Positions 175 to 21,178 of a DNA stretch of 22,012 bases are shown one piece after another. The first letter of the stretch is position 1; each line of letters opens with the position of its first letter. Both the position numbers and the translations under genes were made by a program. A model generated the notes under the pieces. The model had not been told where the DNA came from and made no database searches. It saw only the letters and a program-made list of their open reading frames with translations. The stretch is taken from the IMG/VR virus record IMGVR_UViG_3300040801_003600, positions 1 through 22,012 of that record; one strand, given 5' to 3'. The stretch comes from a virus.

Positions 175-463
175 GGGTATTGTCCAGGTAGAGTTGAAGG
201 GTAGCGAGAGCATTCCAAGCACGATGAGCTAGATGAAGTAGTTTAGATTCTTCATCATAGATTTCGTCCTGGTAAATCGCCATGGTATGCCGGAGTAATG
301 CTTCTTCGTAGCGCTCACTAGCTTTGTCGAGAAAAAGCCAATCCCTTGGGGCATATTTCTTTGCACCAAATTCGGCTACTTCTGTGACAGCCTTAAGGGC
401 ATCAGTCATATCCATGAGGATAAGACCATACCGAAGTTTCTCTTGGTCGTGCTTAGTACCCAT
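158..463 (-). CDS. MazZ-like dATP/dGTP diphosphohydrolase (DUF5664-type)
   Basis: This 101-aa protein matches the phage dATP/dGTP diphosphohydrolase N-terminal family (formerly DUF5664, includes MazZ). Visible family features in order are KHDQEKLRYGLI near the start, an EVAEFGAKKYAPRDW block at about residues 28-42, a helix with YEEALLRHTMAI, and the ESKLLHLAHRAWNALATL block containing the metal-site acidic and His residues. Members hydrolyse purine dNTPs to dNMPs. It sits between a dUTPase/MazG-like gene (overlap 11 nt) and a thymidylate synthase gene (overlap 17 nt), so it belongs to a nucleotide-pool module. MazZ proper works with PurZ in phages that replace A by 2-aminoadenine; no PurZ is visible here, so that role is not claimed. 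Confidence 0.75.
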   Translation of the reverse strand: MGTKHDQEKLRYGLILMDMTDALKAVTEVAEFGAKKYAPRDWLFLDKASERYEEALLRHTMAIYQDEIYDEESKLLHLAHRAWNALATLQLYLDNTRETVA

Positions 464-776
464 TTTCGATTCTCTCTACGATTTTGAGGACAGACTTATT
501 CCAAGCCTTATCAAACTCAGCTTCTGTTACATCTGCGGCTAACAGTATGTTACAGAAGAAATGAAAGAGATCAGCAAGCTCGTCTACAAGAGCTTCTTTG
601 TTTATTGCTTGTTGCTGTACCCTCCAGGATTTCCAGTTAACCTCATTGAGAACCTCTACAGCTTCAACGATTAAAGCTAAGACGTTCTCTTTAACAGCAG
701 TATCTTTTTTAACCATTGGGTAGTTAAGATGTCGCTGTAATATTTCTTGATCACCGAGATACTTGTGTAGGTTCAT
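453..776 (-). CDS. All-alpha NTP pyrophosphatase, dUTPase/MazG-like
   Basis: This 107-aa helical protein carries the two acidic helices of the all-alpha NTP pyrophosphatase superfamily: ExxE at residues 38-41 (VEAVEVLNEVNWKSW) and ExxD at 66-69 (VDELADLFHFF), which together bind the Mg ions. The NExxWKSW stretch and the following DELADLFHF resemble dimeric dUTPase (dUTPase_2) more than classical MazG, so dUTP to dUMP is the favoured reaction, feeding the thymidylate synthase two genes downstream. The protein is shorter than cellular dimeric dUTPases. It overlaps the helicase gene upstream by 26 nt and the MazZ-like gene downstream by 11 nt. Substrate is inferred; fold is well supported. Confidence 0.7.
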   Translation of the reverse strand: MNLHKYLGDQEILQRHLNYPMVKKDTAVKENVLALIVEAVEVLNEVNWKSWRVQQQAINKEALVDELADLFHFFCNILLAADVTEAEFDKAWNKSVLKIVERIENGY

Positions 777-2334
777 TCCACATATGCCCTATGACTGATG
801 GCCATTGACCAATAAGCTCTAGCTTGATAGCTGTTGGTGCTTGAAGCTCGTATATTCTATTTAATGCTTCATCTACTGTAGCAGGCACGGGTGCGTGCCC
901 ACCCCACTTGTGCCACCAAGCTGCGGCTCGTTTCTTGGGATAACCTTCATGCTCAAAGGCTATCCACTCATTGTAGAATAATAAACCACATGAGTATGTA
1001 ACCTTCAGCGACGGAGGTTTACCAGGTTTTTTGTGCTTGCTGTACGTTACGTTATTTACTTGTACTGTTTGAGGTTTGTAATCTCCTTTTAGTAAGGCAT
1101 TGGTGCCAGCAGTTGTATTCAGCTTAGTTTTCGGAGGTGGAAATGCGTAGCCACAAGCTGGACAAAGCTGCTTAGATATATGTACGATCTCACTGCAGTC
1201 AGGGCAGATTCTAGTAAAGCCTGTGCCTTTACCTTTGCCTTTTTCTTTCTTTGATCTAACCTGCACTGCATCTACTGGACCTAGCCGCTGTACATTACCG
1301 GCAAAATCTAGCACTAAGCATTCTTTCTTGCCGTCAGCTGGACGCATACCACGGCCGAGCATTTGTACATGTAATACAGGAGATGCAGTAGGCCTAAGCA
1401 TACCTATTAGATCTACATCTGGTGCATCAAATCCAGTAGTTAAAGTCTCGACAGCTATAAGAGCTTGTATCCTTCCCCCAAGGAACAAGTCTAGTAAGTG
1501 CCGCCTATCAATATCGAGCTTGCTATGCACGGCTGCTGCTATAATGCCAGCCTTATTAAGCTGGTCTGCTATATGCTCACAATGATCTATGTCAATAGCA
1601 AAGATCAGCCAATGCTTATGGCTATTCCTAAATTGTAACAGCTGTGGAATAATCTGATCTGTTACATGCGTTTGATCAAAACGCGAGCTAAGCTGTGCTT
1701 TATTGAAGTCACCACCAGTTACGGTTATACCTTTTGTGTTAAAGGTATAGCCTTGCTTCTTAGCGCGCAATGGTACTAGATAGTCTTGATCAATTAGTGT
1801 TTGAAGCTCGATTTCATAAATAATCTTGTCGAACAAATGCCCTTCAGTTAGCATGCCCGAGGCACGCCGAAATGGGGTGGCGGTAACCCCTAAGATAGGA
1901 ACACCCTTGGGGATTTTGGCAAAGAAGGTACGGTAGCGGCCTTCTCCATCTGGCGGTATAAGATGTGCTTCATCTACAATAATAAAGTTGAAGTGTGCAA
2001 ACAGATCAGCTCGTTTGTAGATAGTCTGTATACCGGCTACAGTGAATTGCCGAATATCAGATCTCCCAAGGCCGCGGCTATAGATACCGACAAGATTTGG
2101 TGGCACATAGTGCTTGAGCTTTGCTACATCCTGGCGTATGATTTCTTTGGTATGTGTAATTACCAGGATGTTCTGTGCTGGGTACTTTTCATATACCTCA
2201 GCACAGAATCCTGCAATGATGTGCGACTTGCCGGAACCAGTAGGGGCAACGATCAATGGATGGCCGCGATTACCAAACCTAAAATAGGTAAAGATAGAAT
2301 TGATCGCTGCTTTCTGGTAGGCACGAAGCTTCAT
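751..2334 (-). CDS. Superfamily 2 DEAH-box helicase with C-terminal zinc ribbon
   Basis: This 527-aa protein is an SF2 helicase of the RecG/UvsW/Type III restriction-like phage group. Motifs are complete: Q-like RAYQKAA at 4-10, Walker A APTGSGKS at 30-37, Walker B DEAH at 121-124, motif III TATPF at 151-155, motif V region TTGFDAPDVD at about 299-308, and motif VI QMLGRGMRP at 324-332 with the arginine finger. A zinc ribbon follows with Cys 377, 380, 391 and 394, preceded by a KKEKGKGKGKG basic linker; the last 100 residues are unrecognised. The likely role is ATP-driven branch migration or D-loop remodelling in phage recombination. The ATG is preceded by AGGAG and overlaps the stop of the 37-aa membrane peptide gene (ATGA). 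Confidence 0.9.
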   Translation of the reverse strand: MKLRAYQKAAINSIFTYFRFGNRGHPLIVAPTGSGKSHIIAGFCAEVYEKYPAQNILVITHTKEIIRQDVAKLKHYVPPNLVGIYSRGLGRSDIRQFTVAGIQTIYKRADLFAHFNFIIVDEAHLIPPDGEGRYRTFFAKIPKGVPILGVTATPFRRASGMLTEGHLFDKIIYEIELQTLIDQDYLVPLRAKKQGYTFNTKGITVTGGDFNKAQLSSRFDQTHVTDQIIPQLLQFRNSHKHWLIFAIDIDHCEHIADQLNKAGIIAAAVHSKLDIDRRHLLDLFLGGRIQALIAVETLTTGFDAPDVDLIGMLRPTASPVLHVQMLGRGMRPADGKKECLVLDFAGNVQRLGPVDAVQVRSKKEKGKGKGTGFTRICPDCSEIVHISKQLCPACGYAFPPPKTKLNTTAGTNALLKGDYKPQTVQVNNVTYSKHKKPGKPPSLKVTYSCGLLFYNEWIAFEHEGYPKKRAAAWWHKWGGHAPVPATVDEALNRIYELQAPTAIKLELIGQWPSVIGHMWNEPTQVSR

Positions 2335-2444
2335 CCAAATACTCCTAGGTCATACAACACCCAGAATATTAGCACCCAGGACAGAATTCCGGCAAGTAGT
2401 ACAGGTAAACAGCCTTCGAAAAGTACTGGATCTTTCATTACCAT
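2331..2444 (-). CDS. Small single-pass membrane protein (37 aa)
   Basis: A short open frame on the reverse strand encodes 37 residues starting MVMKDPVLFEG. It has one strongly hydrophobic stretch at about residues 13-31 (VLLAGILSWVLIFWVLYDL), long enough to cross the membrane once. The start follows a GAGAGAG ribosome-binding sequence and lies inside the last codons of the preceding Cys-rich gene. The stop TGA overlaps the helicase ATG, so the frame fits exactly between two real genes with operon-like overlaps, which is the main argument that it is translated. A second ATG two codons in is an alternative start. Function is unknown; a membrane regulator or small anti-host peptide is possible. 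Confidence 0.6.
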   Translation of the reverse strand: MVMKDPVLFEGCLPVLLAGILSWVLIFWVLYDLGVFG

Positions 2445-2662
2445 ACTCTCTCTAATGCATGCTTAGCGCAGTATACTCCACCACGGAGCATAACAGTACC
2501 GACTGCACCACAGTCTTTACAGGGCACTGGTGCAGTAACACCTTTTGATGATTGTACAGCAATCAGCTGACCTTTATTCTGATGAAGATGTAAACCGATA
2601 CTTGCTAAGGCTTCGGTTAACTTAACAACTTCAACTGAATCGGGGAACTCAATGCTAACCAT
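2438..2662 (-). CDS. Hypothetical protein with CxxC zinc-ribbon-like end (74 aa)
   Basis: The family is not recognised. The first 45 residues look like a small alpha/beta domain (VSIEFPDSVEVVKLTEALASIG). The C-terminal half has a CKDC knuckle at residues 48-51 and a single C-A-K-H pair at about 65-68, a C2CH arrangement that could hold one zinc ion. It starts 8 nt inside the end of the nuclease gene and ends over the start of the 37-aa membrane peptide, so it is co-translated with recombination genes. A nucleic-acid or partner-protein contact through the zinc site is a reasonable guess only. Confidence 0.7.
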   Translation of the reverse strand: MVSIEFPDSVEVVKLTEALASIGLHLHQNKGQLIAVQSSKGVTAPVPCKDCGAVGTVMLRGGVYCAKHALERVW

Positions 2663-3320
2663 GGCAGATACCTTTGTAGGTGCAGAACCGACACGTGAAC
2701 CAATCTGGCCCTCCGATACGATCGGGTGGCTCAGACATCTCTAGGATCTCAGCAGTGCGGATGATATACTTGTTAGCACAAGCATGATCCGTATGCCAAC
2801 GCTCGAAGCAGCGCTCTTCGGTATTCTTATTGACTGCAACGAATAAAACACGTGGAAGCTTTAATGCTTGTGCATATACGTTGGACTGAACAGCATATTG
2901 CATATTGACATCATAGATTCCTTTCTTTTCGTATTGCTTCCAGCTGGCATCATTCATTGTTTTGATTTCAAGCAGGTGTGGTTTGATAGAAATTGGTAGA
3001 CCAATAACTATGCCATCACAGTGGCCTTTAAGCTGGCCATCAAGTAAGCTAACTTCAGCCTGAGTGCCGTACACAGTACAACCGATAGACTCCAGGTCAC
3101 TGATAATTCGATTCTCTTCCCAAGTGCCGCGCTCCCATATACGCAGCGTCCTTGGGGCAACAGGTTCACGGTCTGCATTGTGTGCAGCATACCAGATATG
3201 ACGCGGGCACTCATGCCCTATTTGTGATACTCCCAAGTAGCCACGGCTATCTTGCACAGTTAGCCGGCTCTCGATAAGGGCATTGATTTTATCTTTTGTG
3301 AATTGGTGAATGTCTGCCAT
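2655..3320 (-). CDS. Cas4/RecB-like PD-(D/E)XK nuclease with probable Fe-S cluster
   Basis: From the ATG at 3320 (AGGA upstream) the protein is 221 aa. It carries the RecB/Cas4 exonuclease core: GHCDGIV with the catalytic Asp at 102, LLEIKTM with Glu 118 and Lys 120, and a QYAVQSNVYA helix at 141-150 matching the family's Q-x3-x3-Y motif. One Cys at 38 (ECPRHIWY) and three at 210, 213 and 219 (CRFCTYKGIC) form the split four-cysteine signature of the Cas4/AddB Fe-S nucleases. The expected activity is single-strand DNA exonuclease or end resection in phage recombination, consistent with DUF669 and Sak4 genes upstream. A longer TTG-initiated frame to 3416 exists but its extension is Ala-rich and poorly supported. 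Confidence 0.85.
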   Translation of the reverse strand: MADIHQFTKDKINALIESRLTVQDSRGYLGVSQIGHECPRHIWYAAHNADREPVAPRTLRIWERGTWEENRIISDLESIGCTVYGTQAEVSLLDGQLKGHCDGIVIGLPISIKPHLLEIKTMNDASWKQYEKKGIYDVNMQYAVQSNVYAQALKLPRVLFVAVNKNTEERCFERWHTDHACANKYIIRTAEILEMSEPPDRIGGPDWFTCRFCTYKGICHG

Positions 3321-3396
3321 TTGGTAAAATCCTCGAAAATATGCTGCTAGCGCAGCATGAAGAGCAAGAGCCGGCTTAGCTGCTAAAAGAGCTTTG

Positions 3397-3660
3397 TTAT
3401 GACTCAGCGTCGACAATCACCGGGCCGGTATTGTAAAGTTGCTTTGGCCTAGTCTTCAGCCAATGTAGTAACTCATTATTATGCATCATCTTAGTTTGTG
3501 CATATTGTTTAGCTAGCTCTTGCTCCAATTCAGTGATGTAGTCAGAAGCAGCAATCCATTGGTCTCCATCGTAGTCTACGCTACCTTCATACTCTTTGGT
3601 CTCAGTCGTCAAGTATGGCGGCAGTTGATCTCGCACGTATTTATAGCTGTATGAACCCAT
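3397..3660 (-). CDS. Hypothetical protein (87 aa)
   Basis: The family is not recognised. From the ATG at 3660 the product starts MGSYSYKYVRDQLPPYL and is mixed charged and aromatic, with a predicted helix or short coiled coil at about residues 40-62 (ITELEQELAKQYAQTKMMHN). No cysteine pairs, signal peptide or membrane segment is visible. An upstream in-frame GTG at 3675 would add five residues; the ATG is preferred. The gene lies between DUF669 and the Cas4-like nuclease, with a 76-bp gap after its stop and a 58-bp gap before it that contains a post-stop hairpin repeat. Context suggests an accessory recombination or replication protein, but nothing more. Confidence 0.65.
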   Translation of the reverse strand: MGSYSYKYVRDQLPPYLTTETKEYEGSVDYDGDQWIAASDYITELEQELAKQYAQTKMMHNNELLHWLKTRPKQLYNTGPVIVDAES

Positions 3661-3718
3661 TTCTCTATACCCCACTTTAGCTTAATCTGTTGAGCGGCCA
3701 TCCTTGGCCTACGAAATC

Positions 3719-4144
3719 CTACTCCCAAGGAGCGACAGACTCACCGCTGGTTACTGGCTCCTTGAATGCGCCAACCGTATTGGAAGGCGAGTACCCGTCA
3801 GTGCCGGGCTTGATCTTCACCTGGCCGCTAACGATCTCGCCGTGGAGCTCTTCGGAATCCTCGATTGACATCTTACCGCAGGCCCGGCAAAGACCAGACA
3901 GCTCACGCTGAGCGATTTCAACTGCCTTGGGATTCGGGTTATCGAGATTGAGGTTGAGCCAGATAAACCGGTTAACGTATTCCCCTTCGATAACTTTGAA
4001 GGTAATCTTCAGGTAGTGCCCGTTGCCGGCTTTGGTCTCGCACATGTCGGTATCTTCAACCATGAGGTTGTACCGGCCTGCAGGAATGGGATCAAAGCCA
4101 GTGTTGGGCTCGACGTTTTCAGCGTTGAAGTTCAGAGTTGCCAT
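3719..4144 (-). CDS. DUF669 family protein, putative single-strand DNA-binding/recombination partner
   Basis: This 141-aa protein matches the DUF669 family of phage proteins found beside Sak4, Cas4-like and RecT/Erf genes. Recognisable features are the N-terminal NFNAENVEP and FDPIPAGRYNLMVEDTD block, GNGHYLKITFKVIEGEYVNRFIWLNLNL, and a long middle helix that carries LSGLCRACG. The predicted beta-rich core followed by an acidic tail (SGESVAPWE) resembles single-strand DNA-binding proteins, and an SSB-like role is widely inferred for the family but is not shown here. The start has an AAGGTGAT ribosome site. The gene begins 26 nt inside the Sak4-like gene, so the two are translationally coupled. 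Codon use is more GC-rich than in the small genes around it. Confidence 0.8.
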   Translation of the reverse strand: MATLNFNAENVEPNTGFDPIPAGRYNLMVEDTDMCETKAGNGHYLKITFKVIEGEYVNRFIWLNLNLDNPNPKAVEIAQRELSGLCRACGKMSIEDSEELHGEIVSGQVKIKPGTDGYSPSNTVGAFKEPVTSGESVAPWE

Positions 4145-4814
4145 TAGGTATCACCTTTTTGAACAGTTTCGTGAGGTTTGGTTCTTCCATAGATTCAAGT
4201 CGTCCTGACCGGTCCTTAGCGAGATACTGCATATCTGGCTGAGTTTGCAGATATCTCGTACCTTCTTTGGATACGCGCAAACAGCACACAATATCCATCA
4301 GGTATGGGAAGTTCTGGGTATACAGCTGCCCAGGTAGCATAGGTCCAAAGCGTAGCATCTTCTCGTCCTGGATTTGGCCTTGCTTTGCCGTGAACACTAT
4401 GTGTTTGTTAAGGTTACGGAAACCTCGAGTGAGCTGCATCATCTCGAGAGCCATCTTTCCGTATCCTTGCCGTGGGTCCATACTACCGCCTTTATCAGCA
4501 GCTGCTTTGGCAAGATCAGCCATCTTAGCGTCAAGCACCTGCTCGGCGATATCGGATATGGAGTCAAGGCAAATAGTATCGAAGGGGGCGCCGTGTTCTT
4601 TGACGAACTTGTACGCTTCATGAAGTTCCCCAAGGGTGCTGATCTCAATGACAGGAATATCCTTGCCGGCAAGTGATAACAAGCCAGCTTCCGCGCTGAT
4701 TATCAGTGGTCTTGGGGCAGTTGAACACAGGACGGTTTTGCCTACGCCAGCATTACCGTAGACGGTAAATTTGACGTAGTGCACATCCCGTTTGGTGGAA
4801 GTGATTGCGATCAT
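4119..4814 (-). CDS. Sak4-like RecA-fold ATPase (phage recombinase)
   Basis: This 231-aa single-domain P-loop ATPase has Walker A GNAGVGKT at residues 20-27, a Walker B strand FDTICLDS at 78-86 and a GQIQDEKM region at about 146-153, with the TVLCSTAPRPLIISAEAG segment typical of the phage AAA_24/Sak4 group. Family members are short RecA/Rad51 relatives that promote single-strand annealing with the phage SSB, here most likely the DUF669 protein whose gene overlaps its end. The upstream gene overlaps its start by 4 nt. Length and motif order match Sak4 rather than RecA proper (no C-terminal domain). The role in recombination is inferred from family and neighbours. Confidence 0.85.
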   Translation of the reverse strand: MIAITSTKRDVHYVKFTVYGNAGVGKTVLCSTAPRPLIISAEAGLLSLAGKDIPVIEISTLGELHEAYKFVKEHGAPFDTICLDSISDIAEQVLDAKMADLAKAAADKGGSMDPRQGYGKMALEMMQLTRGFRNLNKHIVFTAKQGQIQDEKMLRFGPMLPGQLYTQNFPYLMDIVCCLRVSKEGTRYLQTQPDMQYLAKDRSGRLESMEEPNLTKLFKKVIPNGNSELQR

Positions 4815-5176: not shown

Positions 5177-5222
5177 GTTGCTCTCGTTTGGTTGAGGCCC
5201 CATCCTTGGGCCATAGAAGTTC

Positions 5223-5924
5223 CTAGCCCTCGATTTCCTGCTTGGCCCACTCCTTCGCGAAGTTGACGTAGGTCAGGAAGGCGCCAGCGGTGGACTCGGC
5301 ATACCCAAGCTCATCCGCCATCTTACGGGCAAGAGCCTTGCGGCCGAGACCCTGGTTGGTACGGATGAAGGACACCGTCTCGGAGAGCGGAACGGTCGCA
5401 GCGGCACGCCCGGTGCTGAGGCCGAGCTCGCGAGTCGCCCTGGAGTACGCCGAAGCTGCCGTGTTGGCAGTATAGCCCATCTCCTCTTCCAGGGCAGTCT
5501 TGACTTCCTTGGAGGTCTTGCCGCTGTCCAGCATCTCCTTGACGAACTTGACCATGTCCTCGAGGCTGGTACGCTTGATCTGCGGCAGCTCGATGTCGTT
5601 GTCTTCGCAGTACTTGCGGACATGAGCCGCAGCAGTGGCCTCACTGACATCGAAGCGATCCGCAATGGCCGTCACGATATCGCGCCGCGTCTCGACCTCG
5701 ATGAAATCTTCCGCGGTGTAGTCGGCGAGATACTCATTCACTTCCTTGTTACGCTCAGCCGCCCCAAGGATCAGGCCAGCCGCCTTGGCCATGCTTTGAT
5801 AGTCCCGGACAGCCTGGGTGACACTGAGACCGCCCTCAGTGACCAGCTTCATGATGGTGTCGTCTTTGCCAAGACCCTCTTCACGCGCTGCGTTGAAGAT
5901 AGCGAGATTTGCATCGTTCGTCAT
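5223..5924 (-). CDS. Four-repeat helix-turn-helix-like protein (233 aa)
   Basis: The start is set at ATG 5924, six bases after an AAGGTG ribosome site; a GTG at 5933 would add three residues. The protein consists of four degenerate copies of a 40-50 residue helical unit at about residues 7-51, 76-112, 121-169 and 181-228. Each has an 'h-x2-hh ... G-hs-x-s/t-TA-x3-h-x3' pattern: LSVTQAVRDY, VSEATAAAHVRKY, YTANTAASAYSRA and YAESTAGAFLTYV are the equivalent recognition-helix segments. This looks like tandem HTH DNA-binding domains. Its promoter region contains an iteron-like sequence that also occurs as an array at 13.2-13.4 kb, so autoregulation or origin binding is plausible. A shorter relative lies at 12766-13083. 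The specific function is unknown. Confidence 0.75.
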   Translation of the reverse strand: MTNDANLAIFNAAREEGLGKDDTIMKLVTEGGLSVTQAVRDYQSMAKAAGLILGAAERNKEVNEYLADYTAEDFIEVETRRDIVTAIADRFDVSEATAAAHVRKYCEDNDIELPQIKRTSLEDMVKFVKEMLDSGKTSKEVKTALEEEMGYTANTAASAYSRATRELGLSTGRAAATVPLSETVSFIRTNQGLGRKALARKMADELGYAESTAGAFLTYVNFAKEWAKQEIEG

Positions 5925-5946
5925 GTCATTCACCTTTTTACATTGG

Positions 5947-5982
5947 AGAGTATATTATACTCTGCTTTTTACGAAAAGGGAA
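5947..5982 (-). promoter_or_regulatory. Promoter-like region of the HTH-repeat gene with 17-bp palindrome
   Basis: On the reverse strand a perfect TATAAT lies at 5959-5954, with a weak -35 (TTCCCT, 5982-5977) 17 bp upstream. The -10 box sits inside a perfect 17-bp palindrome, AGAGTATA-T-TATACTCT, at 5947-5963, which would allow a repressor to cover it. The start codon is 30 bp downstream. An iteron-like stretch lies a further 25 bp upstream (6002-6020). Confidence 0.55.
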
Positions 5983-6001
5983 CTAAAAGTTTTCTATAGC
6001 T

Positions 6002-6020: not shown

Positions 6021-6040
6021 CCCCCTTGGGAACATCGAAT

Positions 6041-6773: not shown

Positions 6774-6782
6774 TTCGTCTCA

Positions 6783-8876: not shown

Positions 8877-9071
8877 GTGCAGTTCAAAGTATGTAATACA
8901 TGTGGTAAGAATCTGCCAGATACTGGTGAATACTTTAATCTGCGAATTAAGAAAGGCGGAATTTGGGGTACCACAGCTAAATGCAAGTCTTGTATGCTAG
9001 TCCGGCATCGGGAACTGCGAGAGATTAAACGTATAACTAAACTGCTTAAGGGGGCAGACGTCAATGTTTGA
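8877..9071 (+). CDS. Zinc-ribbon protein (64 aa)
   Basis: The product starts at GTG 8877 behind a strong AGGAG site. It carries two CxxC knuckles, CNTC at residues 6-9 and CKSC at about 36-39, separated by a KNLPDTGEYFNLRIKKGG segment, and a basic C-terminal helix (RHRELREIKRITKLLKG). The spacing and the 'K-x-C-x2-C-x3-L/K-P ... F ... C-K-x-C' layout is that of the small treble-clef/HNH-associated zinc fingers common in phages, but no HNH catalytic residues follow. It overlaps the primase-helicase gene by 8 nt. A DNA-contact or primase-accessory role is plausible. Confidence 0.7.
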   Translation: MQFKVCNTCGKNLPDTGEYFNLRIKKGGIWGTTAKCKSCMLVRHRELREIKRITKLLKGADVNV

Positions 9072-11352
9072 TGTTGCTAACCGCTTCTTGACTGCGCTTG
9101 ATCCAACCGCGAAGAAGTTCCTGTTTGTCACATTCGATGATGTTCCGGGTCGCCGCAATAATGCGCTGCTCAATACGTTCTATGGTTCGCTTGCCACATA
9201 CTATAGCAAGCTGGAGTACCTCAATCGCCAAGGTGCTGGAATCTACGTCACTATCAATAAGACCAAAGCCAATCGCCGTAAGAAAGGCGATATCATCGAA
9301 GCCAGGGCTTTGTGGCAAGAGGACGACTCTGGTATCGTACCCAAGCTGGCCGCTGATCACCCTCCGTCGATCATAGTTAACACCAGCAAGAATCACGCGC
9401 ACAGGTATTGGCTCATTCACCCAAGTGAGGACCTGGCTGCTTGGGAGCGTGCACAAGAAGCTATGTGCCGCACTCAGCATTCGGATCCCGGCGCTAAAGA
9501 CTTGGCCCGCGTGTTGAGACTCCCTGGATTCTACAACAATAAACGTGCAGCACCCGAGCTGGTCGAGCTGGTCAGCGTGGATGACCGTATGTACCACCTG
9601 GCCGATTTGTGCACCGAACTTGGGGTAGCTCCGCCGACTGAGTTCATAGAAGAAGAATCGATACCTGGTACCGGGGCAGAAGGCGGCATTGATCAACAGA
9701 GTATGCTCCTAGAATACTACGCGCAGATACAGCGTGGTGAGCACCTGCACACGCCAATCCGTGCATTGATGATGATCTTTGCCAACCAAGGGCAAGATAT
9801 CACAATGAACAAACTCCAGTGCCAGATCGCAATCGGTGCTTGGCCGCACAATGACGAACGCAAGCAGAAAGCACTCGATGATCTCGACAGTATGCTTGCT
9901 GCTACATATCGCAAGATAGAGCAGGAAGAACACGAAGAGTACATTCCGCTCAGTGAAATCCGCGGCAGCCTGCTCGACGAACAACCCCAAGTTGAGCCTG
10001 ACTGGCCACCCGGCATGATGGGCGACCTTGCCCGCGCTGCTAATGAGTTCTTCGTAGTGCCGAATAAGACTGTGGCAATCATGACCGCGTTGAGTCTGGT
10101 AGCCGGCATCGTAGGGAGGCGGTACAATGTATCGAGATCCGGACTCAACCTGTACAGCACAATAATGATGCCAACCGGCGCCGGCAAAGACTCAATTCGT
10201 AAGTTCTGCCAGCGTGTACTGATGGATAAGACTATGTTGGGCACAAACGGCCTGGCATTCTTAGGCCCGCAGAACTTCACCGGCCCTGCTGCTCTGCTCA
10301 AGACCCTAGTGCGGCAACCCAGCATGCTGTGCGTAATGACCGAAGCTGGCTTGCTGTACAAATCCGATAGCGGCGACAAGAACGGGCTAACGCGTGTCAT
10401 ACTCCAGGCGTACACATCCAGCGGCGCCAACGAGTTCATCGAAACCGAGAAGTACACCCAAGACCGCGATGACATCCCAGCTGTTCGGGCCCCGGCGCTA
10501 ACCATAATCAATGAAGCCACGCCGATCACACTCCTTGGGGAACTGAAGAAACGGGAGTCTATCAATACCGGTGAAATACCGCGCATGTGGATCTTCATGC
10601 TAGATGGCCGCAAGCCGTACAATAACCCAAACCCACACGATCTTCATCTCCCAAGTGAGGTATCCCGGCGCATCAAAGACCTGCTGATCGACTGCTACAA
10701 TGTACAGAACGATCAACATCCCCAAGTAGTGAACATAGCGCCGCCACTCGAGTACATAGACTTCACTATCGAATGTACTGATAGATACAACCAACTCATA
10801 GCAGAGGACCCTAACCGTGCTATCATGTACACCCGCGCCGCGCACAAGGTACTGAAGGTAGCCAGCATCATCGAAGTATTCAATAATCCCTCTGCTACAG
10901 TACCGGATGGCCGGGCTTGGGAATGGGCGCGCTCACTATTCGAGGTAGAAATGCAACACGTACACAAGATCATCGGGTATGTTGAACCAATGGATAAAGC
11001 TACTGAAGATGCCTTCCGCATCATACTCAACTTACTCGAAGGTGTATACAAAGGCCAGAACAAATACATTGATCCTAAACTGCGAGAGAAGAATATATTC
11101 ACCGAGTCACCATTTCGGCAAGCTGCTGCAAGCACTGCATCGATACGTGATTGCGGCATTTCCCCTAAGTATGGTTCCCCCAAGTCCGGCGCCCGCATTG
11201 TGCTCGAGTATTTACAAGCCGAAGGTTATATTCGCAAAGTTAAACTGCGGCTAATGGATGGCCGTGGTAAGAATACCAGCGTGCAATACCAGTTAACTCC
11301 GCAAGGTCAAGATATGGCTAAACAGCTATTCAACAATGCTATTGTCGTTTAA
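9064..11352 (+). CDS. Primase-helicase: RepB/AEP-like primase plus DUF3987-type helicase
   Basis: This 762-aa protein combines two domains. The N-terminal 190 residues fit RepB-type archaeo-eukaryotic primases: GAGIYVTINKT at 58-68, ALWQEDDSG at 82-90 with acidic residues, NHAHRYWLI at 110-118 (the conserved s-x-H strand) and DPGAKDLARVLRLPGFYN at 141-158. The central part matches DUF3987/superfamily 3-like phage helicases, with Walker A MPTGAGKDS at about 369-377, CVMTEAGLLYKSDS as the Walker B region and a further conserved APALTIINEATP segment. The last 100 residues look like a winged helix (QLTPQGQDMAKQLF). It is expected to prime and unwind phage DNA. Codon use is GC-richer than its - strand neighbours. 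A structured non-coding region directly downstream is a candidate origin. Confidence 0.85.
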   Translation: MFDVANRFLTALDPTAKKFLFVTFDDVPGRRNNALLNTFYGSLATYYSKLEYLNRQGAGIYVTINKTKANRRKKGDIIEARALWQEDDSGIVPKLAADHPPSIIVNTSKNHAHRYWLIHPSEDLAAWERAQEAMCRTQHSDPGAKDLARVLRLPGFYNNKRAAPELVELVSVDDRMYHLADLCTELGVAPPTEFIEEESIPGTGAEGGIDQQSMLLEYYAQIQRGEHLHTPIRALMMIFANQGQDITMNKLQCQIAIGAWPHNDERKQKALDDLDSMLAATYRKIEQEEHEEYIPLSEIRGSLLDEQPQVEPDWPPGMMGDLARAANEFFVVPNKTVAIMTALSLVAGIVGRRYNVSRSGLNLYSTIMMPTGAGKDSIRKFCQRVLMDKTMLGTNGLAFLGPQNFTGPAALLKTLVRQPSMLCVMTEAGLLYKSDSGDKNGLTRVILQAYTSSGANEFIETEKYTQDRDDIPAVRAPALTIINEATPITLLGELKKRESINTGEIPRMWIFMLDGRKPYNNPNPHDLHLPSEVSRRIKDLLIDCYNVQNDQHPQVVNIAPPLEYIDFTIECTDRYNQLIAEDPNRAIMYTRAAHKVLKVASIIEVFNNPSATVPDGRAWEWARSLFEVEMQHVHKIIGYVEPMDKATEDAFRIILNLLEGVYKGQNKYIDPKLREKNIFTESPFRQAAASTASIRDCGISPKYGSPKSGARIVLEYLQAEGYIRKVKLRLMDGRGKNTSVQYQLTPQGQDMAKQLFNNAIVV

Positions 11353-11729: not shown

Positions 11730-12098
11730 ATGTTAAATGGTCGCGTGAAGGGCCAAATCGGTGAGCGTGAAGCGTGCCGGTTGCTCGGCGATGTCATTGG
11801 TGAGCTGGAACTAACCCGCAATCTCGAACAAGTTCGGAGCGGCGGCGCTGACATCCTTGGGATATCTGGCTTATGCATTGAGGTCAAGCGGCAGGAGACG
11901 CTGTCGATAAACAGTTGGTGGCAACAGGTTTGCCGGGCCGCTGACAACAGAGGTGATGTTCCCGTACTCATGTTCCGGCAGAATAGGAAACCCTGGAGAT
12001 TTTTGCTACCTGCCTATTTGCTCACCGTTGGCGCCCCAGGTTACATAGAGCTGCAGGAACCAGCATTCCGTTGCTGGCTCCGAGCATGGGTTAGATGA
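11730..12098 (+). CDS. Small PD-(D/E)XK endonuclease, Holliday-junction-resolvase-like
   Basis: This 122-aa protein has the full compact PD-(D/E)XK core: GQIGEREACRLLG with Glu 12/14 in the first helix, RSGGADILG with the catalytic Asp 41, LCIEVKRQE with Glu 51 and Lys 53, and a following WWQQVCRAA helix. Size and motif spacing resemble archaeal Hjc-type resolvases and the phage family often annotated as PDDEXK endonucleases. Likely work is resolving branched DNA before packaging or nicking recombination intermediates. The start ATG follows CTTGGGAGAATAAACAGT, where GGGAG serves as the ribosome site and overlaps a dispersed CTTGGG motif. It converges on, and overlaps by 8 nt, the - strand 47-aa gene. 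Confidence 0.8.
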   Translation: MLNGRVKGQIGEREACRLLGDVIGELELTRNLEQVRSGGADILGISGLCIEVKRQETLSINSWWQQVCRAADNRGDVPVLMFRQNRKPWRFLLPAYLLTVGAPGYIELQEPAFRCWLRAWVR

Positions 12099-12511: not shown

Positions 12512-12721
12512 TTACTTGTAGTCCAAGACGAACTCATTGAGGCGCTGCCTCACTTCACGATGCCCAGGAGTGCGGCAATGTGTGAAGTTGACCAGGACAT
12601 ACTGAAGCTGATAGGCAAGCTCCTCGTCATCAAAGGGATACTCTTGGGCAACTTGGGCATAGGCAACAGCTTGGGGATTGCCATGCTTGATAATGAAACA
12701 AAGGGCTTCATTCACGGTCAT
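12512..12721 (-). CDS. Hypothetical protein (69 aa)
   Basis: The family is not recognised. The product is helical, with TVNEALCFIIKHGNPQAVAYA, DDEELAYQLQYVLVNFTHC and a closing EVRQRLNEFVLDYK helix, a pattern seen in small phage proteins that are repeat-like or regulatory. The ATG follows GGAGAATATC, the same leader used by the 78-aa gene downstream. UUCG-loop hairpins lie both just before its ribosome site and just after its stop. It forms part of the - strand island that interrupts the rightward gene block. Confidence 0.65.
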   Translation of the reverse strand: MTVNEALCFIIKHGNPQAVAYAQVAQEYPFDDEELAYQLQYVLVNFTHCRTPGHREVRQRLNEFVLDYK

Positions 12722-13214: not shown

Positions 13215-13229
13215 ATTCAATGTTTCTAT

Positions 13230-13417
13230 GTGCGTATAGATTTTATTTATACATAGCTGTACTTATGCCCATATAGATTCTACTTATACATAGCTGTGCT
13301 TATGCCCTTATAGATTCTACCTATCTATTAGTTCAGCTTATGTGCTTATTAGTTCTACCTATCCATTAGTTTTACCTATGACCACATCGATTTTTCTTAT
13401 CGATAGGTTCTACCTAT
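13230..13417. repeat. Tandem iteron-like array, five 37-38 bp units
   Basis: Five head-to-tail units are seen at 13230-13266, 13267-13303, 13304-13341, 13342-13379 and 13380-13417. Each begins with G, holds TTCTACCTAT or a close variant (TTCTACTTAT, TTTTATTTAT, TTTTTCTTAT) and ends in CTTAT or CCTAT. On the reverse strand each unit splits into two half-units resembling ATARGTAGAAYCTAT, giving about ten half-sites. The last unit contains the palindrome-like ATCGAT-TTTTCTT-ATCGAT. Related single copies lie at 6002-6020 and 8746-8757. The array separates divergent promoters; it could be an origin iteron set, an operator array or an enhancer-like site. It is not a CRISPR: repeats are adjacent with no unique spacers. 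Confidence 0.75.
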
Positions 13418-14813: not shown

Positions 14814-14820
14814 GTACCCC

Positions 14821-16412: not shown

Positions 16413-18445
16413 TGGATCTAAAAACGATCATTGCTCGTGAGTTTTCGGCAGCGAAGACTTATTATACGAACAATTTTGCTTCAAATGAGGAAGAGGCACT
16501 AGACTACTTTAATGGTGAAAAGCCAGGCGAAATCGACACTGATATCAAAGAAGTATTTACAAAAATAGTTTCTCCGGATGTCGCAAATGCTGTAGAGCAT
16601 ACACTTGCTGACATTATGCCGGCTTTCTCGTCTGAGGCACCTGCGATATTTGTGCCCACCAGTAAAGACGATGAGATAAGGGCACAGATAGAGACTACTT
16701 TTGTAAATGATGTCTTTTTGCAGCAGTCAAATGGTTTTATCAAGCTAACTACTGCTGTTAAAGATGCTTTCATTCGTAAGATCGGCGTTGTAGAAATACA
16801 AACTTACGAAAAGACTGTAGTACAGTATCAAAAACTGGAAAAGACGAACGCCGAGGTTCTTTCTACTCTTTTACGTGAAAGCCAAAATCAAAACGATACG
16901 GTTGAAGTCGCGGAGATTAACGGCAAAACTGAGTATGATCCTACTGTTTTAGACTCTACCTTTTCAGCTACTATTAAGCGATCGCAAAAGCAACGGCAGC
17001 TTTACATTGATGTATTTCCCCCTGACGAGCTACTGTTTAGCGACGATGCTGAAGAGCCAAATCTTGATAACTGTCGCTTTGTAGCTCGTGAACGGTTACT
17101 TCGTGTTTCTGAGCTAATTGAGCTTGGATACGATCGTACTACTGTTGAAAAGCTGCCGCCATATAGCCAAACTACTTCAATTGGCTCAAAACCGCATAAT
17201 AGGGATATTCAGGTAGACAGAGATAACGAAACGCATATAAGCAATAGGGAAGTTCGTGTTGCTTTTTGCTACATGCTTATCGATACAGACGATGACGGCA
17301 TTGCAGAGCGCCGAAAGATTGTAATAGCTGGCGATCTTGAGTCGTCTCCAAAGATTCTGAGCAATGAACCGTGCAGTATGCAACCCTTTGCGGTTGGTGT
17401 ACCGTTTGTTTACCCACACCGTGTTCGCGGCATAAGCTTGTTTGACAAAATCAAGCAGATTCAGCTTATCAAGACAAAAGTACTTCGGCAGCTACTTACA
17501 GCAGGTGAGCAAGCAGCCAGGGGCCGTCTTGGCGTAGTCAACAATATGGCTAACGTTGTTGATTTGGAAGCTTCTATTTTCGGAGGTTACGTTCGCCTTA
17601 CTTCGCCTAATGGTGTAGTTAATCTACCTAATCCGCCTTTCCCAAGCGATGTAGCTCAGCTACTCAATATTATGGACAAAGAGCGGAAAGAAAGTGGTGG
17701 ATCCGCTATCGATAAAGCAGATGAAACAATGCTTATTGGCGGTGATACAGCTCATGGCCTTGAGCGTATCATGTCTGCAATGGAACAGCTAAACAGCCTC
17801 ATTGCTAAGACTATTGCGGAAACGCTAGTTCGGCAAATTTACGTAAAGATTCATTCGAATTTGCGCCAGCACTTCCTTGGGGAAATGAATCTGCAGCAAG
17901 GCGGTAACTGGATTACTGCAACTCCAAGCACCTGGCCAGTTCGTAACAATGTGAAGATTTCCCTTGGGTTGACCATGGGTGATCGGATGCGGATGGCACA
18001 GAATTACACCATGCTGCTTAACGAGCAAAAGGAAATGCTTGAAAAAGGTAGTATTTTGACTACCGAGCAGAATATGTATGCATTGCTTATTGCTCGAGCA
18101 AATGCGCTCATGATTCCGAATGCGCATGGGTACTATACAGATCCGCGTAGTCCAGAAGGCCAGCAAGCAGTACAAGCTAGAACAGTGCAGCAACAGCAGC
18201 AACAGCAACTGCTAATGCAAGAAAAGCTCATGAATCTAGAACTGCTGCCAAAGGTCGAAGCAATTAAAGCCCAAGGTGCCGCTACCGTGCAGCAGCTTAA
18301 GAATGATGTAGAGCTTCAAAAGATGCAAAGTGAGATGAACAAAGCTATTGCTGAGCTCTCCGTCAAATACTCTGAGCTGGGGTTGAAACTCACCGAGCTA
18401 AATGCAAAATATGACGGGGAAGAAGTTCCAGACACAGTTCAGTGA
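16412..18445 (+). CDS. Portal protein, SU10-like
   Basis: This 677-aa protein matches the SU10-type podovirus portal. Features in order are an N-terminal EALDYFNGEKPG block, KIVSPDVANAVEHTLADIMPAF at about 51-72, the paired VFLQQSNGFIKLTTAVKDAFIRKIGVVEI stretch, and a clip/stem region. A Gln-rich run (QQQQQQQ) then leads to a 100-residue coiled coil (KLMNLELLPKVEAIKAQGAA...), which would form the barrel/crown at the DNA-facing vertex. The dodecameric ring anchors packaging motor and tail. Start overlaps the terminase stop by one base. The repetitive Gln codons (CAG/CAA) are coding, not a separate repeat. Confidence 0.85.
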   Translation: MDLKTIIAREFSAAKTYYTNNFASNEEEALDYFNGEKPGEIDTDIKEVFTKIVSPDVANAVEHTLADIMPAFSSEAPAIFVPTSKDDEIRAQIETTFVNDVFLQQSNGFIKLTTAVKDAFIRKIGVVEIQTYEKTVVQYQKLEKTNAEVLSTLLRESQNQNDTVEVAEINGKTEYDPTVLDSTFSATIKRSQKQRQLYIDVFPPDELLFSDDAEEPNLDNCRFVARERLLRVSELIELGYDRTTVEKLPPYSQTTSIGSKPHNRDIQVDRDNETHISNREVRVAFCYMLIDTDDDGIAERRKIVIAGDLESSPKILSNEPCSMQPFAVGVPFVYPHRVRGISLFDKIKQIQLIKTKVLRQLLTAGEQAARGRLGVVNNMANVVDLEASIFGGYVRLTSPNGVVNLPNPPFPSDVAQLLNIMDKERKESGGSAIDKADETMLIGGDTAHGLERIMSAMEQLNSLIAKTIAETLVRQIYVKIHSNLRQHFLGEMNLQQGGNWITATPSTWPVRNNVKISLGLTMGDRMRMAQNYTMLLNEQKEMLEKGSILTTEQNMYALLIARANALMIPNAHGYYTDPRSPEGQQAVQARTVQQQQQQQLLMQEKLMNLELLPKVEAIKAQGAATVQQLKNDVELQKMQSEMNKAIAELSVKYSELGLKLTELNAKYDGEEVPDTVQ

Positions 18446-18623
18446 TCATGGGAAAGCTATCTGTAAGCAGTTACAGAGTAGCGGCTTTCTCGAAGAGCTA
18501 ACTGAGGTGGCAACATCACGACTCTATACAGAGTTCGTTAGTGCTGATGATGTTTCAGCAATAGCAGTTAAACAACGTCAGCATGCTTTGCAGTACATAA
18601 TCAATATACTTTCCGGGGAATAA
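18402..18623 (+). CDS. Hypothetical protein (73 aa) between portal and scaffold
   Basis: The family is not recognised. The frame begins inside the last 44 bases of the portal gene; ATGs at 18402 and 18411 are possible starts, and no strong ribosome site distinguishes them. The product is helical and slightly charged (CKQLQSSGFLEELTEVATSRLYTEF, SAIAVKQRQHALQYIINILSGE), with a short HTH-free pattern. It stops one base before the scaffold-like gene start (TAAAATG). Small proteins at this place in SU10-like phages are usually uncharacterised; a head-assembly accessory role is possible. Confidence 0.55.
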   Translation: MQNMTGKKFQTQFSDHGKAICKQLQSSGFLEELTEVATSRLYTEFVSADDVSAIAVKQRQHALQYIINILSGE

Positions 18624-18624
18624 A

Positions 18625-19614
18625 ATGCCAAGTATAAGCCAGATTGAAGAATTCACCAAAGGGTTAAGCGCGGCCTCCCCTACTGAACCTGATACGGTAG
18701 AAGAAGAGCAAGCACAGGAGCCCCAACTTGGGGAAGAAATTGAGCAAGAGCCAGTAGAAGCCGAGCAAGAGCAGCCACTTGTTTTCTTCAACGAGCTCCC
18801 TGAAAAGTATGGGATTGATGCTGAAGACTTTTATAAGCTCAAGCTTAAGACCGATACAGGGCAAGAGTATACGCTATCTGAAGTAAAAGATCAACTTCAG
18901 ACGTATTCTCGGCAGCAAGAGGAGCTTGCCAGGCAGCAAGAAGTACTGCAGGCAAAGGAACGAGAGCTTATTACTCAGTTCCAGCAAACTGCACCTCGCG
19001 AAAGAGAAATCGTCCAGCTTGAGCAGCATTTGTCAAATGTACAAATGAGCAAGCAGCAATTGCTGTCTCAGCTGTCCCAACTACAAGAAGAAGGTGATGC
19101 TAATTCTCTTATCCGGGCGCAAACACAGCTTTTGCAGCTTGATCACGCTGAGCAGCAGCTGACAGGCCAGCTTAACAATCTTGTGTCGGCTAGCCAAGAG
19201 CAGCGGCAGCAAAGGTTGATGTCTTATAAGCAAGAGCAGTTTAACCTACTGCTCAACAAGATTCCCGATCTTCGCAATGATGATACACGTAAGGCTACAT
19301 TTGCGGAGATGAAAGAGTTCATGGCAAAAGAAGGCATTACTCCAGCTGAAGCAAATCAGCTATACGATGCCAGACATGCCGCAATCGTGTACAAAGCAAT
19401 GCTTTGGGATAAGCATCAACGAGATGTAGCTAATACGAAGCAAACGCTTTCTACCGGTAAACTTACTACGAGAGTAGCAGGTGCCGGTCTTGACAGAAAA
19501 GCAGCAGAGGCTAATAAGCTCGACGCTGCTATTGAACGTGGTACGAAATCCAATCGAGAGAAGGATAAGCGTGCTGCGTTTACTGCCGTAGCCAAAAAGG
19601 CTGGGCTAATATAG
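18625..19614 (+). CDS. Scaffold-like protein, coiled-coil and acidic
   Basis: This 329-aa protein has an acidic, Glu/Gln-rich N-terminus (TEPDTVEEEQAQEPQLGEEIEQEPVEAEQEQPL), then a short DAEDFYKLKLKTDTGQEYTLSEVKDQLQTY module, a long continuous coiled coil at about residues 90-200 rich in Gln, Glu and Leu, and a basic C-terminal region (RKAAEANKLDAAIERGTKSNREKDKRAAFTAVAKKAG). The layout, length and position directly before the major capsid gene match phage scaffolding proteins, which are disordered and helical and leave the prohead before or during packaging. The basic tail would contact capsid. No protease motif is present. ATG is preceded by CCGGGGAA. Confidence 0.8.
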   Translation: MPSISQIEEFTKGLSAASPTEPDTVEEEQAQEPQLGEEIEQEPVEAEQEQPLVFFNELPEKYGIDAEDFYKLKLKTDTGQEYTLSEVKDQLQTYSRQQEELARQQEVLQAKERELITQFQQTAPREREIVQLEQHLSNVQMSKQQLLSQLSQLQEEGDANSLIRAQTQLLQLDHAEQQLTGQLNNLVSASQEQRQQRLMSYKQEQFNLLLNKIPDLRNDDTRKATFAEMKEFMAKEGITPAEANQLYDARHAAIVYKAMLWDKHQRDVANTKQTLSTGKLTTRVAGAGLDRKAAEANKLDAAIERGTKSNREKDKRAAFTAVAKKAGLI

Positions 19615-19692
19615 GAAGATGCCTGAGAGGGCTTATTCCAAAGGTACGAGAGTACTTGCACCCTTGGGTTAATCTTCATTACGGAGCCTACC

Positions 19693-20763
19693 ATGGCAAC
19701 TACCAATACCGATGCTGTTGATCTGGCTGCTGCGCCAGTCGGTGGCGTCATTCACGAAGATGTTATGGATCAGCTGTACAATATCGATCCGGTGGAGCGC
19801 CCCTTCATCGACATGATCGATAACGTCTCCGCTGACAACCAGTACAAGGAATTCGTTGAGCGCCCGCTTCGGGCTCGCAACCTGGCTAACCATGCCGTTG
19901 ACGGCATGGCCATCACCGCTAAGAAGGGCAATCCCGGTAAGCGGATGGGCGCGTACCACCAGATCCTGTACGATAACGTTGCGGTCTCTGAGCGCGGCCA
20001 GAACGTGGATCCGATCGCTCGTACCAATGAGCTGCTCTTCCAGGTCGCGATGATCCAGAAGGAGATTCGTCGAGATGAGGAGGCCATCAAGCTCAGTAAC
20101 CAGAAGTCACAGCCTGGTGATGGCGATGAGGCCAACATTGCTACCACTGGCCCTGGTCTTCTGCCTGGCGCTCCGACGTGGCTGATCACGCATCGCAACG
20201 GTGGTGCTACTGGTACTGCTCCACAGATGTCCGATAACGTCAACAAGGCCGGCTATCCCAGCGTTGCGGCAGGTGCCGGTACGGCACGTGGGCTCACGGA
20301 CACTATGGTCCGGGACATGCTGGAGGACATCTATACCGCTGGCGGTAACCCACGGTACGCTATCAGCCATCCCAAGGTGATTCGGAACTACTCTTCGTTC
20401 CAGTTCACCAGTTCTGCTCGTATCGCTACGCTCACCAGCGACAAGCCGCAGAGCGGTGGCATGGGTGGCGGCCTCACCGCCTACGGTGCTGTCAACGTGA
20501 TTGCCACCGACTTCGGCATCACGCTCGAGCTAGTTCCGGATCGGCAGTACGAGCTCTACAGCGGCGCAGCTGATATGTTGCTGATTGACCCGGATTACTG
20601 GGCGAACAGCACGCTACAGGGCTACGAGACCAAGCCTTTGGCCAAGGTCGGGTTGTCGGACCACCGGGTCATCAGTGCTGACCTGTCGCTTCTCTGCTTC
20701 CAGGAGAAGTCCAGTGGCTGCATTGCTGACATCGATCCGGCGGTTCCTGTCACCGATGCTTAA
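19693..20763 (+). CDS. Major capsid protein, DUF5309/SU10-like
   Basis: This 356-aa protein matches the DUF5309 (SU10 major capsid) HK97-fold group. Recognisable are the N-terminal DQLYNIDPVERPFIDMI and YKEFVERPLRARN segment, the DEEAIKLSNQ spine helix region, and the P-domain and C-terminal AKVGLSDHRVISADLSLLCFQEKSSG close, which corresponds to the family's 'LAKTGDSxKxxilaExxLxxxN' ending. A strong ACGGAG site precedes the ATG. Codon use and GC content are higher than in the portal and scaffold genes, as expected for the most expressed late gene. A 78-bp gap before it contains a GTAC-GAGA-GTAC stem, a CCTTGGGT motif and nothing clearly promoter-like. Confidence 0.9.
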   Translation: MATTNTDAVDLAAAPVGGVIHEDVMDQLYNIDPVERPFIDMIDNVSADNQYKEFVERPLRARNLANHAVDGMAITAKKGNPGKRMGAYHQILYDNVAVSERGQNVDPIARTNELLFQVAMIQKEIRRDEEAIKLSNQKSQPGDGDEANIATTGPGLLPGAPTWLITHRNGGATGTAPQMSDNVNKAGYPSVAAGAGTARGLTDTMVRDMLEDIYTAGGNPRYAISHPKVIRNYSSFQFTSSARIATLTSDKPQSGGMGGGLTAYGAVNVIATDFGITLELVPDRQYELYSGAADMLLIDPDYWANSTLQGYETKPLAKVGLSDHRVISADLSLLCFQEKSSGCIADIDPAVPVTDA

Positions 20764-21178
20764 ACGGATTTCAGATAAAGCCACGGATGGCTATACCGTT
20801 CACGAAATTGATGGTAAGCATGTACGGGTTACTCGTGTGCAGAACACGGACCCGTACTATGCTGAAAACCAGCAATTACGGAACAATATCGGCAAAGACG
20901 CTGTACGGCGCTGGGCAATGCCTATTGCCCAGATTCCCTTCGCTGATTATCAGGAACTGGTCAAGCGTAATCCTGGCTTACGTAAAGGAGATGCTCAAAG
21001 CACTACTGCTGAGTGGCTCAAGCTACTTCGCACAGGTGCAGCTGAGCAATTCCGTACAGTAAGGCGGAACCTTGTTCCTGATTCTATGCGCCCTGACTTG
21101 GGAAGTATCATTCTCCCAAGCCGCGTGCAAAAGGCTATCTTGGGAGAGCAAAATGCCAGGCAAACTGTACAAGAATGA
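20756..21178 (+). CDS. Head/neck-associated hypothetical protein (140 aa)
   Basis: The start is set at ATG 20756, which overlaps the capsid stop by 8 nt; a longer frame upstream lies wholly inside the capsid gene and is rejected. The product opens MLKRISDKATDGYTVHEIDGK, followed by DPYYAENQQLRNNIG, IPFADYQELVKRNPGLR with the following KGDAQSTTAEWLKLL, and a basic RRNLVPDSMRP turn. The 'Y-x-E-N-x-x-L-R-N ... I-P-x-x-x-y-x-x-l' spacing resembles a conserved small protein found next to capsid genes in several podoviruses. Head completion or decoration is suggested by place alone. Confidence 0.65.
   Translation: MLKRISDKATDGYTVHEIDGKHVRVTRVQNTDPYYAENQQLRNNIGKDAVRRWAMPIAQIPFADYQELVKRNPGLRKGDAQSTTAEWLKLLRTGAAEQFRTVRRNLVPDSMRPDLGSIILPSRVQKAILGEQNARQTVQE

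Follow-up and report, generated by a model that had tools for sequence, protein, structure and literature searches.

A hexamer repeated throughout a 22-kb phage sequence and its possible recognition by the phage's own primase

Why does one exact hexamer, CTTGGG (CCCAAG on the other strand), recur throughout a phage genome, inside genes and between them? The question was raised by IMG/VR virus record IMGVR_UViG_3300040801_003600, a virus sequence of 22,012 bases (hereafter the window), which is probably about half of a phage of ∼40 kb (42,205 bases in Cronobacter phage Ss1 and 42,807 in the related viral record L190; L and G numbers denote viral records or loci compared with the window). It encodes SU10-type portal and capsid proteins, a terminase, Sak4, a Cas4-type nuclease, an SSB-like protein, a ResIII helicase and a RepB_primase/DUF3987 primase (9064–11352). 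The nearest isolates found were Ss1 and Vibrio phages VA-RY-3 and PVA7; the window terminase is ∼50% identical to those of Ss1 and VA-RY-3, and the other shared proteins 25–42%. It was found that CTTGGG is a real genome signal at the level of the DNA, conserved within its clade and replaceable. The explanation that we favour, and to which we give about an even chance, is that the phage's own RepB'-like archaeo-eukaryotic primase (AEP) recognizes the word on the template and that the word is selected for density. This role was absent from the list proposed in the first-pass annotation of the window.

Over-representation of CTTGGG in the window

Exactly 59 copies of CTTGGG were counted between positions 345 and 21144, 35 on the plus strand and 24 on the minus strand, spaced 373 bases apart on average when both strands are counted together and about 630–920 bases per strand. 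The first-pass annotation had estimated about 59 copies on both strands, about 24 of them extending to CTTGGGG; 24 such extensions were indeed counted, and the reversed-pattern control for CTTGGGG gave 0. The form CCTTGGGG accounted for 11 of the 59 copies. Markov models of first, second and third order predicted 10.0, 13.8 and 17.1 copies, respectively, corresponding to an excess of 5.9- to 3.5-fold; the earlier figure of about five times chance lies inside this range. With a z of 10.1 under the third-order model, CTTGGG ranked first among all hexamers of the window, and a background that would predict the observed count, named earlier as a possible refutation, was not obtained up to third order. 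The fourth-order prediction was 34 copies, from pentamers that themselves contain the motif. The 18 single-mismatch variants occurred at counts near or below expectation (top excesses 22 versus 19.3, 16 versus 12.7 and 18 versus 14.7), indicating that the word is exact.

All six strand/phase classes were occupied, as had been noticed from the letters alone. By one gene list, 24 copies were co-oriented with the gene, 20 were opposite and 15 were intergenic; by a second, slightly different list, 18 lay outside genes. All seven gap positions cited previously were intergenic, but 14891, to which a frame had been assigned, lay outside the gene list used. When the codons of 27 genes were shuffled synonymously (1000 runs), a mean of 10.6 copies (sd 2.8) was obtained and never more than 21, compared with 41 observed. 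Codon usage and protein conservation could therefore be ruled out as the cause, in agreement with the first-pass annotation, and a compositional artefact was excluded by these shuffles together with the Markov models up to third order. That the hexamer itself is under selection is well supported. In the window, C was favoured at −4 and −1 of the motif and a purine after it; the enrichment of C in the window, L188, L189 and L190 was 1.96–2.47-fold at −4 and 1.07–2.93-fold at −1.

Little structure was found in the distribution of the copies. The capsid gene contained 1 copy versus 2.9 expected (P 0.22), and the segment after 21145 contained 0 versus 2.3 expected (P 0.10), neither being significant, so the reported sparsity in the capsid region and the newly acquired cassette deduced from motif absence after 21144 were not borne out. 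Three co-oriented copies lie within 33 bases on the plus strand of a large gap (12643–12675); the cluster around them (7 in 700 bases) was not significant (P 0.30), and clustering at a putative origin was unsupported. The spacing in the window was no different from random (P 0.15), and among 11 genomes it was more even than random only in Ss1 (P 0.009) and G005 (P 0.004). By eye, the orientation seemed to switch near 11.4 kb, where the GC skew has a minimum, but this was not significant (sign test 0.23, permutation 0.57). A link to gene orientation was likewise absent. Repressor stoperators have an orientation fixed relative to transcription, which does not fit the 24 co-oriented and 20 opposite copies.

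The enriched hexamer in related phages

Relatives were examined by a terminase-based scan (best 80 of 168 viral-contig relatives) and a primase-based scan (39 new loci); one-protein scans gave 1 for the portal, 1 for a 236-residue protein encoded at 5223–5933 and 0 for the whole primase. The primase-based scan contained L187–L190, whose primase helicase halves are 45–63% identical to that of the window, L187 and L188 being near-identical in primase. CTTGGG was enriched in all four (z of 6.0, 7.3, 7.0 and 5.0 for L187, L188, L189 and L190); in L190 the overlapping CCTTGG (z 6.6) outranked it. Few coding copies shared their codon position with the window (6 of 27 in L188, 4 of 27 in L189 and 3 of 33 in L190; the chance figure printed for these shared positions ignores protein conservation). 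Since most coding sites differ in codon position, it is the density of CTTGGG that was kept, not its position.

CTTGGG was not enriched in Ss1, VA-RY-3 or PVA7. These phages were enriched in AGCGGA (59, 84 and 54 copies; z of 7.9, 9.9 and 6.8, respectively), in all frames. In the records of sufficient length, AGCGGA reached z of 4.2–9.9 together with a primase N-terminal half of the VA-RY-3 type in VA-RY-3, G004, Ss1, PVA7, G007, G005, G011, L117 and L097, and was weaker despite such an N-terminus in G014 (2.5), L085 (1.8) and L127 (1.3). Man711 and G009, with distant partial matches to this primase type, were unenriched, and seven short contigs in which the primase N-terminus was not found (L080, L086, L091, L094, L096, L102 and L113) gave z of 3.0–4.0. 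In L082, which has the other replication genes and a different catalytic domain, CGCGGA was enriched. Further words were found in records without RusA, a resolvase considered below. Among 137 records, L270, L207 and L199 took the first three places for CCGTGG, and L279 and L274 the first two for CTGTAG, closely followed by phage PaP3; L271 had AGTGGA. Of eight other phages with primase catalytic domains 22–36% similar, seven had no CTTGGG excess; Shewanella phage 1/44 had 18 copies versus 8.9.

A word imposed by the host or by modification (restriction-modification, an uptake sequence or host Chi) was also considered. AGCGGA was enriched in Vibrio and Cronobacter phages, but not in four genomes that carry the name 'Vibrio phage' and have no VA-RY-3-type N-terminus (z −1.0 to 0.3); for one of the four the recorded host is Shewanella. 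By analogy, this disfavours a host uptake or host Chi role. No methyltransferase was detected in Pfam scans of 24 window proteins. With composition excluded by the controls above, we consider this whole group of explanations highly improbable.

Several other over-represented words were observed. The palindrome TGATCA occurred 31, 33 and 31 times in VA-RY-3, Ss1 and PVA7 versus 10 to 13 expected; the deposited PVA7 genome has many fragmented genes (portal, polymerase, helicase), perhaps due to sequencing errors. In phages with distantly related replication genes, TGTGGG (30 versus 3.2, z 15; Rhodobacter phage RcHartney) and GGGCAG (41 versus 8.1, z 11.5; Sphingomonas phage Lucius) were enriched in all frames. 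Sinorhizobium phage phiM5 contained 169 TGACAG and 159 TGTCAG versus 64 expected each, the largest copy excess among the top hexamers listed.

Primase domains and the enriched word

The window replicon encodes an AEP primase on the plus strand, as judged from structural matches and from Pfam, in which the entire protein matched RepB_primase with an E of 2.5e-6. The catalytic domain (9064–9690, end approximate) is followed by a predicted helix bundle, the candidate reader of CTTGGG (9694–9933, model residues 211–290), in the position of the RepB'/PriCT-1 bundle, and by a DUF3987-type helicase half (9991–11352, Pfam E 2.5e-7) homologous to those of the Ss1, VA-RY-3 and viral-contig primases. An AlphaFold2 model of the N-terminus (9064–9999) had a mean pLDDT of 83.5. 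It matched the PrimPol of cyanophage S-2L (6zp9; Z 22.5, root-mean-square deviation (rmsd) 2.2, 176 residues) and RepB' of plasmid RSF1010 (3h25; Z 18.6, rmsd 2.7, 177 residues). A second RepB' structure (3h20) aligned over 241 residues including the bundle region (Z 19.0) with an rmsd of 13.1, and therefore its domain arrangement differs from that of the window model. Residues 211–290 were predicted to be helical (block pLDDT 81–93), and with the whole N-terminus compared the RepB' alignment reached residue 291. The model of the L208 primase N-terminus, of another catalytic type, was weakly AEP-like (S-2L PrimPol Foldseek E 2.4e-4, Z 7.8; RepB' Z 6.7–6.9), its highest Z being 8.5 for Helicobacter pylori HP0184.

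The primases were split into the catalytic domain and the following helix bundle, and bundle clusters H1 and H2 were distinguished. Clustering left out 11 of 47 primases that were truncated, had an unusable N-terminus or were near-duplicates (L204, L205, L211, L222, L225, L127, L193, L206, L195, L085 and L201); the resulting table of bundle and motif in 36 genomes retains the near-duplicates L187/L188, L221/L223 and L214/L215/L224. The H2 bundle was present only in the window and L187–L190, and CTTGGG was enriched in 5 of these 5, with z not above 3.1 in all other 31 genomes. The H1 bundle occurred with several kinds of catalytic domain. AGCGGA or CGCGGA reached z of at least 3 in 18 of 25 H1 genomes (the others being L213, L215, L218, L192, L196, L212 and L207) versus 1 of 11 other genomes, and in that one, L220, the bundle had been mis-cut.

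Natural domain combinations were in keeping with a role of the bundle. The RepB-like catalytic cluster without the H2 bundle (L198, L199, L203, L209 and L217) had CTTGGG z of −1.1 to 0.0. L198 was the clearest case: its catalytic domain clusters with that of the window (30% identical over 139 residues; Pfam RepB_primase below the curated cut-off), its bundle is H1, and CGCGGA was present 87 times versus 24.6 (z 12.6), with a CTTGGG z of −0.8. L194 and L082 combine a Prim-Pol (PF09250) catalytic domain with an H1 bundle and were enriched in CGCGGA. None of 24 loci of at least 6 kb (L282–L306) that matched the catalytic domain, mostly weakly, and lacked H1 had a z of at least 3 for AGCGGA/CGCGGA.

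A possible priming mechanism and known systems

If CTTGGG is a primase site, the primase-helicase would travel on the single-stranded lagging-strand template and halt at the hexamer, which the helix bundle would read on the single strand; the catalytic domain would then begin the primer, probably just 5' of CTTGGG, where C is enriched. If closely spaced start sites are favoured by selection on both strands, the genome could become filled with the word, and copies ∼373 bases apart with both strands counted (630–920 per strand) would suit lagging-strand synthesis. Divergence of the primase in a related phage would lead to a different word. Binding, priming and the role of the bundle are suggested here by analogy with RepB', pRN1 and NrS-1. 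The fuller proposal, a genome-wide priming code of one hexamer, specific to the helix bundle, kept on both strands at a density of up to ∼3 per kilobase, and rewritten upon primase divergence or domain swap, so that specificity is readable from the genome, is put forward tentatively and at somewhat below even probability.

In RepB', pRN1 and NrS-1, the helix bundle is involved in the reading or binding of the initiation site (PMC4434180, PMC8718748, PMC7102993), and the pRN1 bundle was identified as PriCT-1 (PMC5862659). The window primase shares with the RSF1010 RepB' and ssiA/ssiB system the RepB_primase family and the model alignment over the catalytic domain and helix-bundle region, and both would read a specific template sequence. 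They differ in that RSF1010 has one 40-nucleotide ssi site per strand (PMC4434180) whereas the window has a bare hexamer 59 times in 22 kb, and in that the window primase is fused to a DUF3987 helicase. The NrS-1 primase-polymerase and pRN1 ORF904 have the same order of AEP domain, helix bundle and helicase, and recognize short template words, which was attributed to the bundle (PMC8718748, PMC7102993); the bundles of both are reported to bind the recognition site, and the base directly 5' of its site is the main start point of NrS-1 priming (PMC8718748). T7 gp4 likewise uses short template words, (G/T)2GTC, as lagging-strand start sites, with Okazaki fragments of ∼3 kb on average (PMC12839067), but it is a zinc-binding, DnaG-like primase.

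A nick or recombination site had also been suggested. Like the window, phages with localized nick sites of the tf type carry a repeated short word, and tf groups with PaP3 (PMC3517423), whose portal is distantly related to the window portal. The 14 tf sites lie on one strand only (PMC3517423), unlike the 35 plus-strand and 24 minus-strand copies of CTTGGG, and a role as strand-specific nick sites was rejected.

No report of such enrichment in phages was found among the open-access matches listed, as judged from titles and the beginnings of abstracts, with subscription literature outside this scope; PMC9206674 and PMC7504290, both among these matches, were unrelated. The novelty lies in the genome-wide density of the hexamer and its apparent co-change with the primase. 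If the primase explanation is true, a simple word count would suffice to learn which sequence an uncharacterised primase recognizes, and a protein domain would be linked to a DNA word across many phages, natural domain swaps included. Start-site choice by AEP primases would become testable with a panel of natural protein-motif pairs, and one replication enzyme would constrain a whole genome.

Competing explanations

Which gene tracks the word was assessed by the area under the curve (AUC) for recognising same-motif versus different-motif genome pairs, using 37 genomes hand-labelled by their enriched word (primase found in 34). For distant pairs, the helix bundle (0.88–0.89) performed best with the primase's helicase part (0.87–0.88), followed by ResIII helicase (0.79–0.83); where five other genes had a mean identity below 50%, these three gave 0.89, 0.87 and 0.83. 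Under that limit, polIII gave 0.78, terminase 0.74, the primase catalytic domain 0.73 and Sak4 0.71. The lowest values were those of RusA (0.67–0.69 for distant pairs, 0.69 under the limit), Cas4 (0.56–0.59, 0.59) and SSB (0.58 under the limit).

Several observations weigh against recognition by the primase. The motif labels were assigned after the enrichment itself had been seen. When all pairs were kept, ResIII helicase (AUC 0.89) equalled the bundle (0.88), and the PDDEXK nuclease gave 0.95 on 7 same-motif pairs. The CTTGGG genomes form one clade, and therefore other clade genes, such as that of the 236-residue protein and PDDEXK, co-vary with the motif. L209 and L217 have RusA and no H1 bundle and were enriched in AAGCGG, which overlaps AGCGGA. 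Nine records with diverged H1-like bundles and no RusA on record (L199, L207, L211, L270, L271, L272, L275, L277 and L279) stayed below z 3 for AGCGGA/CGCGGA; L274, of the same kind, was an exception with 8 copies (z 4.1), and the other RusA-less H1 records enriching these words (L117, L223, L224 and L265) break off within the primase gene or close to it. The closest bundles of the three CCGTGG genomes are not each other's. The strand ratio was 274:168 toward the terminase strand for AGCGGA, but for CTTGGG it was 35:24 in the window, 11:11 in L187 and 28:31 in L190, a weak form of the bias that lagging-strand sites would show. Finally, T7 priming words are only modestly enriched in T7 (GGGTC 39 versus 28, TGGTC 79 versus 66, GTGTC 43 versus 23, TTGTC 26 versus 20), and the NrS-1 genome differs from the window in having only two copies of its 8-nucleotide site (PMC7102993), its other word, the far shorter GTG, being used with a flexible start (PMC8718748). 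Priming sites therefore need not be enriched.

The Holliday-junction resolvase adjoining the primase is a strong rival, although we think it unlikely to be the answer. The hexamer would be the sequence at which it prefers to cut or bind, kept by selection so that intermediates of recombination or packaging can be resolved anywhere in the genome; the enzyme would be RusA in the AGCGGA/CGCGGA phages and, in the window, a PDDEXK protein (11730–12098, plus strand; Pfam PDDEXK_15 E 2.7e-11, PHROG 244 'RusA-like Holliday junction resolvase' E 3.3e-18). Resolvases show sequence preferences. All 18 AGCGGA/CGCGGA genomes carried RusA, as did 3 of the 19 others, a further point against the primase. When all open reading frames of at least 70 residues from three genomes were compared, positive and negative genomes were separated best by RusA (9 of 9 versus 2 of 10) and by the helix bundle (8–9 of 9 versus 1–3 of 10). 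The AAGCGG enrichment of L209 and L217 also fits a resolvase, as does that of AGCGGA in 3 of 10 RusA-bearing records without H1 on record (L080, L096 and L102; z 3.3–4.0), but the L080 contig stops within its primase, and no primase was found on L096 or L102. RusA similarity poorly predicted the motif in distant pairs, and RusA-bearing G008, G020, L089, L110 and L124 had no AGCGGA enrichment. Four enterobacterial phages outside the module, with RusA at 38–42% identity, had 23, 16, 23 and 13 copies of AGCGGA versus 28, 13, 27 and 28 of the reversed word. PDDEXK relatives at 40–50% identity (L199, L202, L203, L207, L211 and L225) had CTTGGG z of −1.1 to 1.3. RusA was not found in any of the 4 CTTGGG, 3 CCGTGG or 2 CTGTAG records, some of which are incomplete. 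Primase and adjoining resolvase are thus incompletely separated by these data.

The primases of L209 and L217 have a Cys/His-rich, zinc-binding-looking segment in place of the helix bundle.

Two roles suggested in the first-pass annotation, a Chi-like recombination signal and the binding site of a nucleoid-like protein, remain rivals. In the former, degradation by a phage helicase-nuclease (ResIII helicase, Cas4 exonuclease and Sak4) would stop and recombination would start at the hexamer. The window, VA-RY-3 and Ss1 each carry these three genes, and ResIII similarity tracked the motif fairly well, both in distant pairs and in all pairs; AAGCGG resembles Chi of Bacillus subtilis and Staphylococcus aureus. 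Chi sites show orientation bias, but this was absent from the CTTGGG genomes, and Cas4 was a poor predictor in distant pairs; we regard a Chi-like signal as distinctly unlikely.

A clade-specific nucleoid or regulatory protein, for example the 236-residue protein, could instead bind CTTGGG. This protein was well conserved only in the CTTGGG clade among searched records, and the hexamer was denser outside genes than inside (4.11 versus 2.33 per kb). It would leave the equivalent hexamers unexplained in phages where the protein was not found; moreover, no DNA-binding family was above threshold in Pfam, and CTTGGG was unlinked to gene orientation. We consider such a binder very unlikely.

Other features of the window

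The replication-recombination module on the minus strand contains the ResIII/DEAD helicase (751–2334), a Cas4-domain exonuclease (2655–3416; PHROG 1990, E 1.8e-62), an SSB-like protein (3719–4144; Pfam DUF669 and PHROG ssDNA-binding families) and a Sak4-like single-strand annealing protein (4119–4814; Pfam AAA_24, PHROG 124, E 7.3e-58). The 236-residue protein (5223–5933, minus strand), which we call htb, has repeated helical segments as read from its sequence. Its homologues were 57–62% identical in L188–L190 and weak in L203, L207 and L010 (36% over 72 residues in the last); a search of a phage collection gave no match, and Pfam gave only a sub-threshold PqqD. An Rfam search returned zero matches.

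A large intergenic gap contains five tandem A+T-rich repeats of 37–38 bases (13217–13404) with GCTTAT and ATAGATTCTACCTAT cores. These repeats are iteron-like and are a candidate replication origin or regulatory array.

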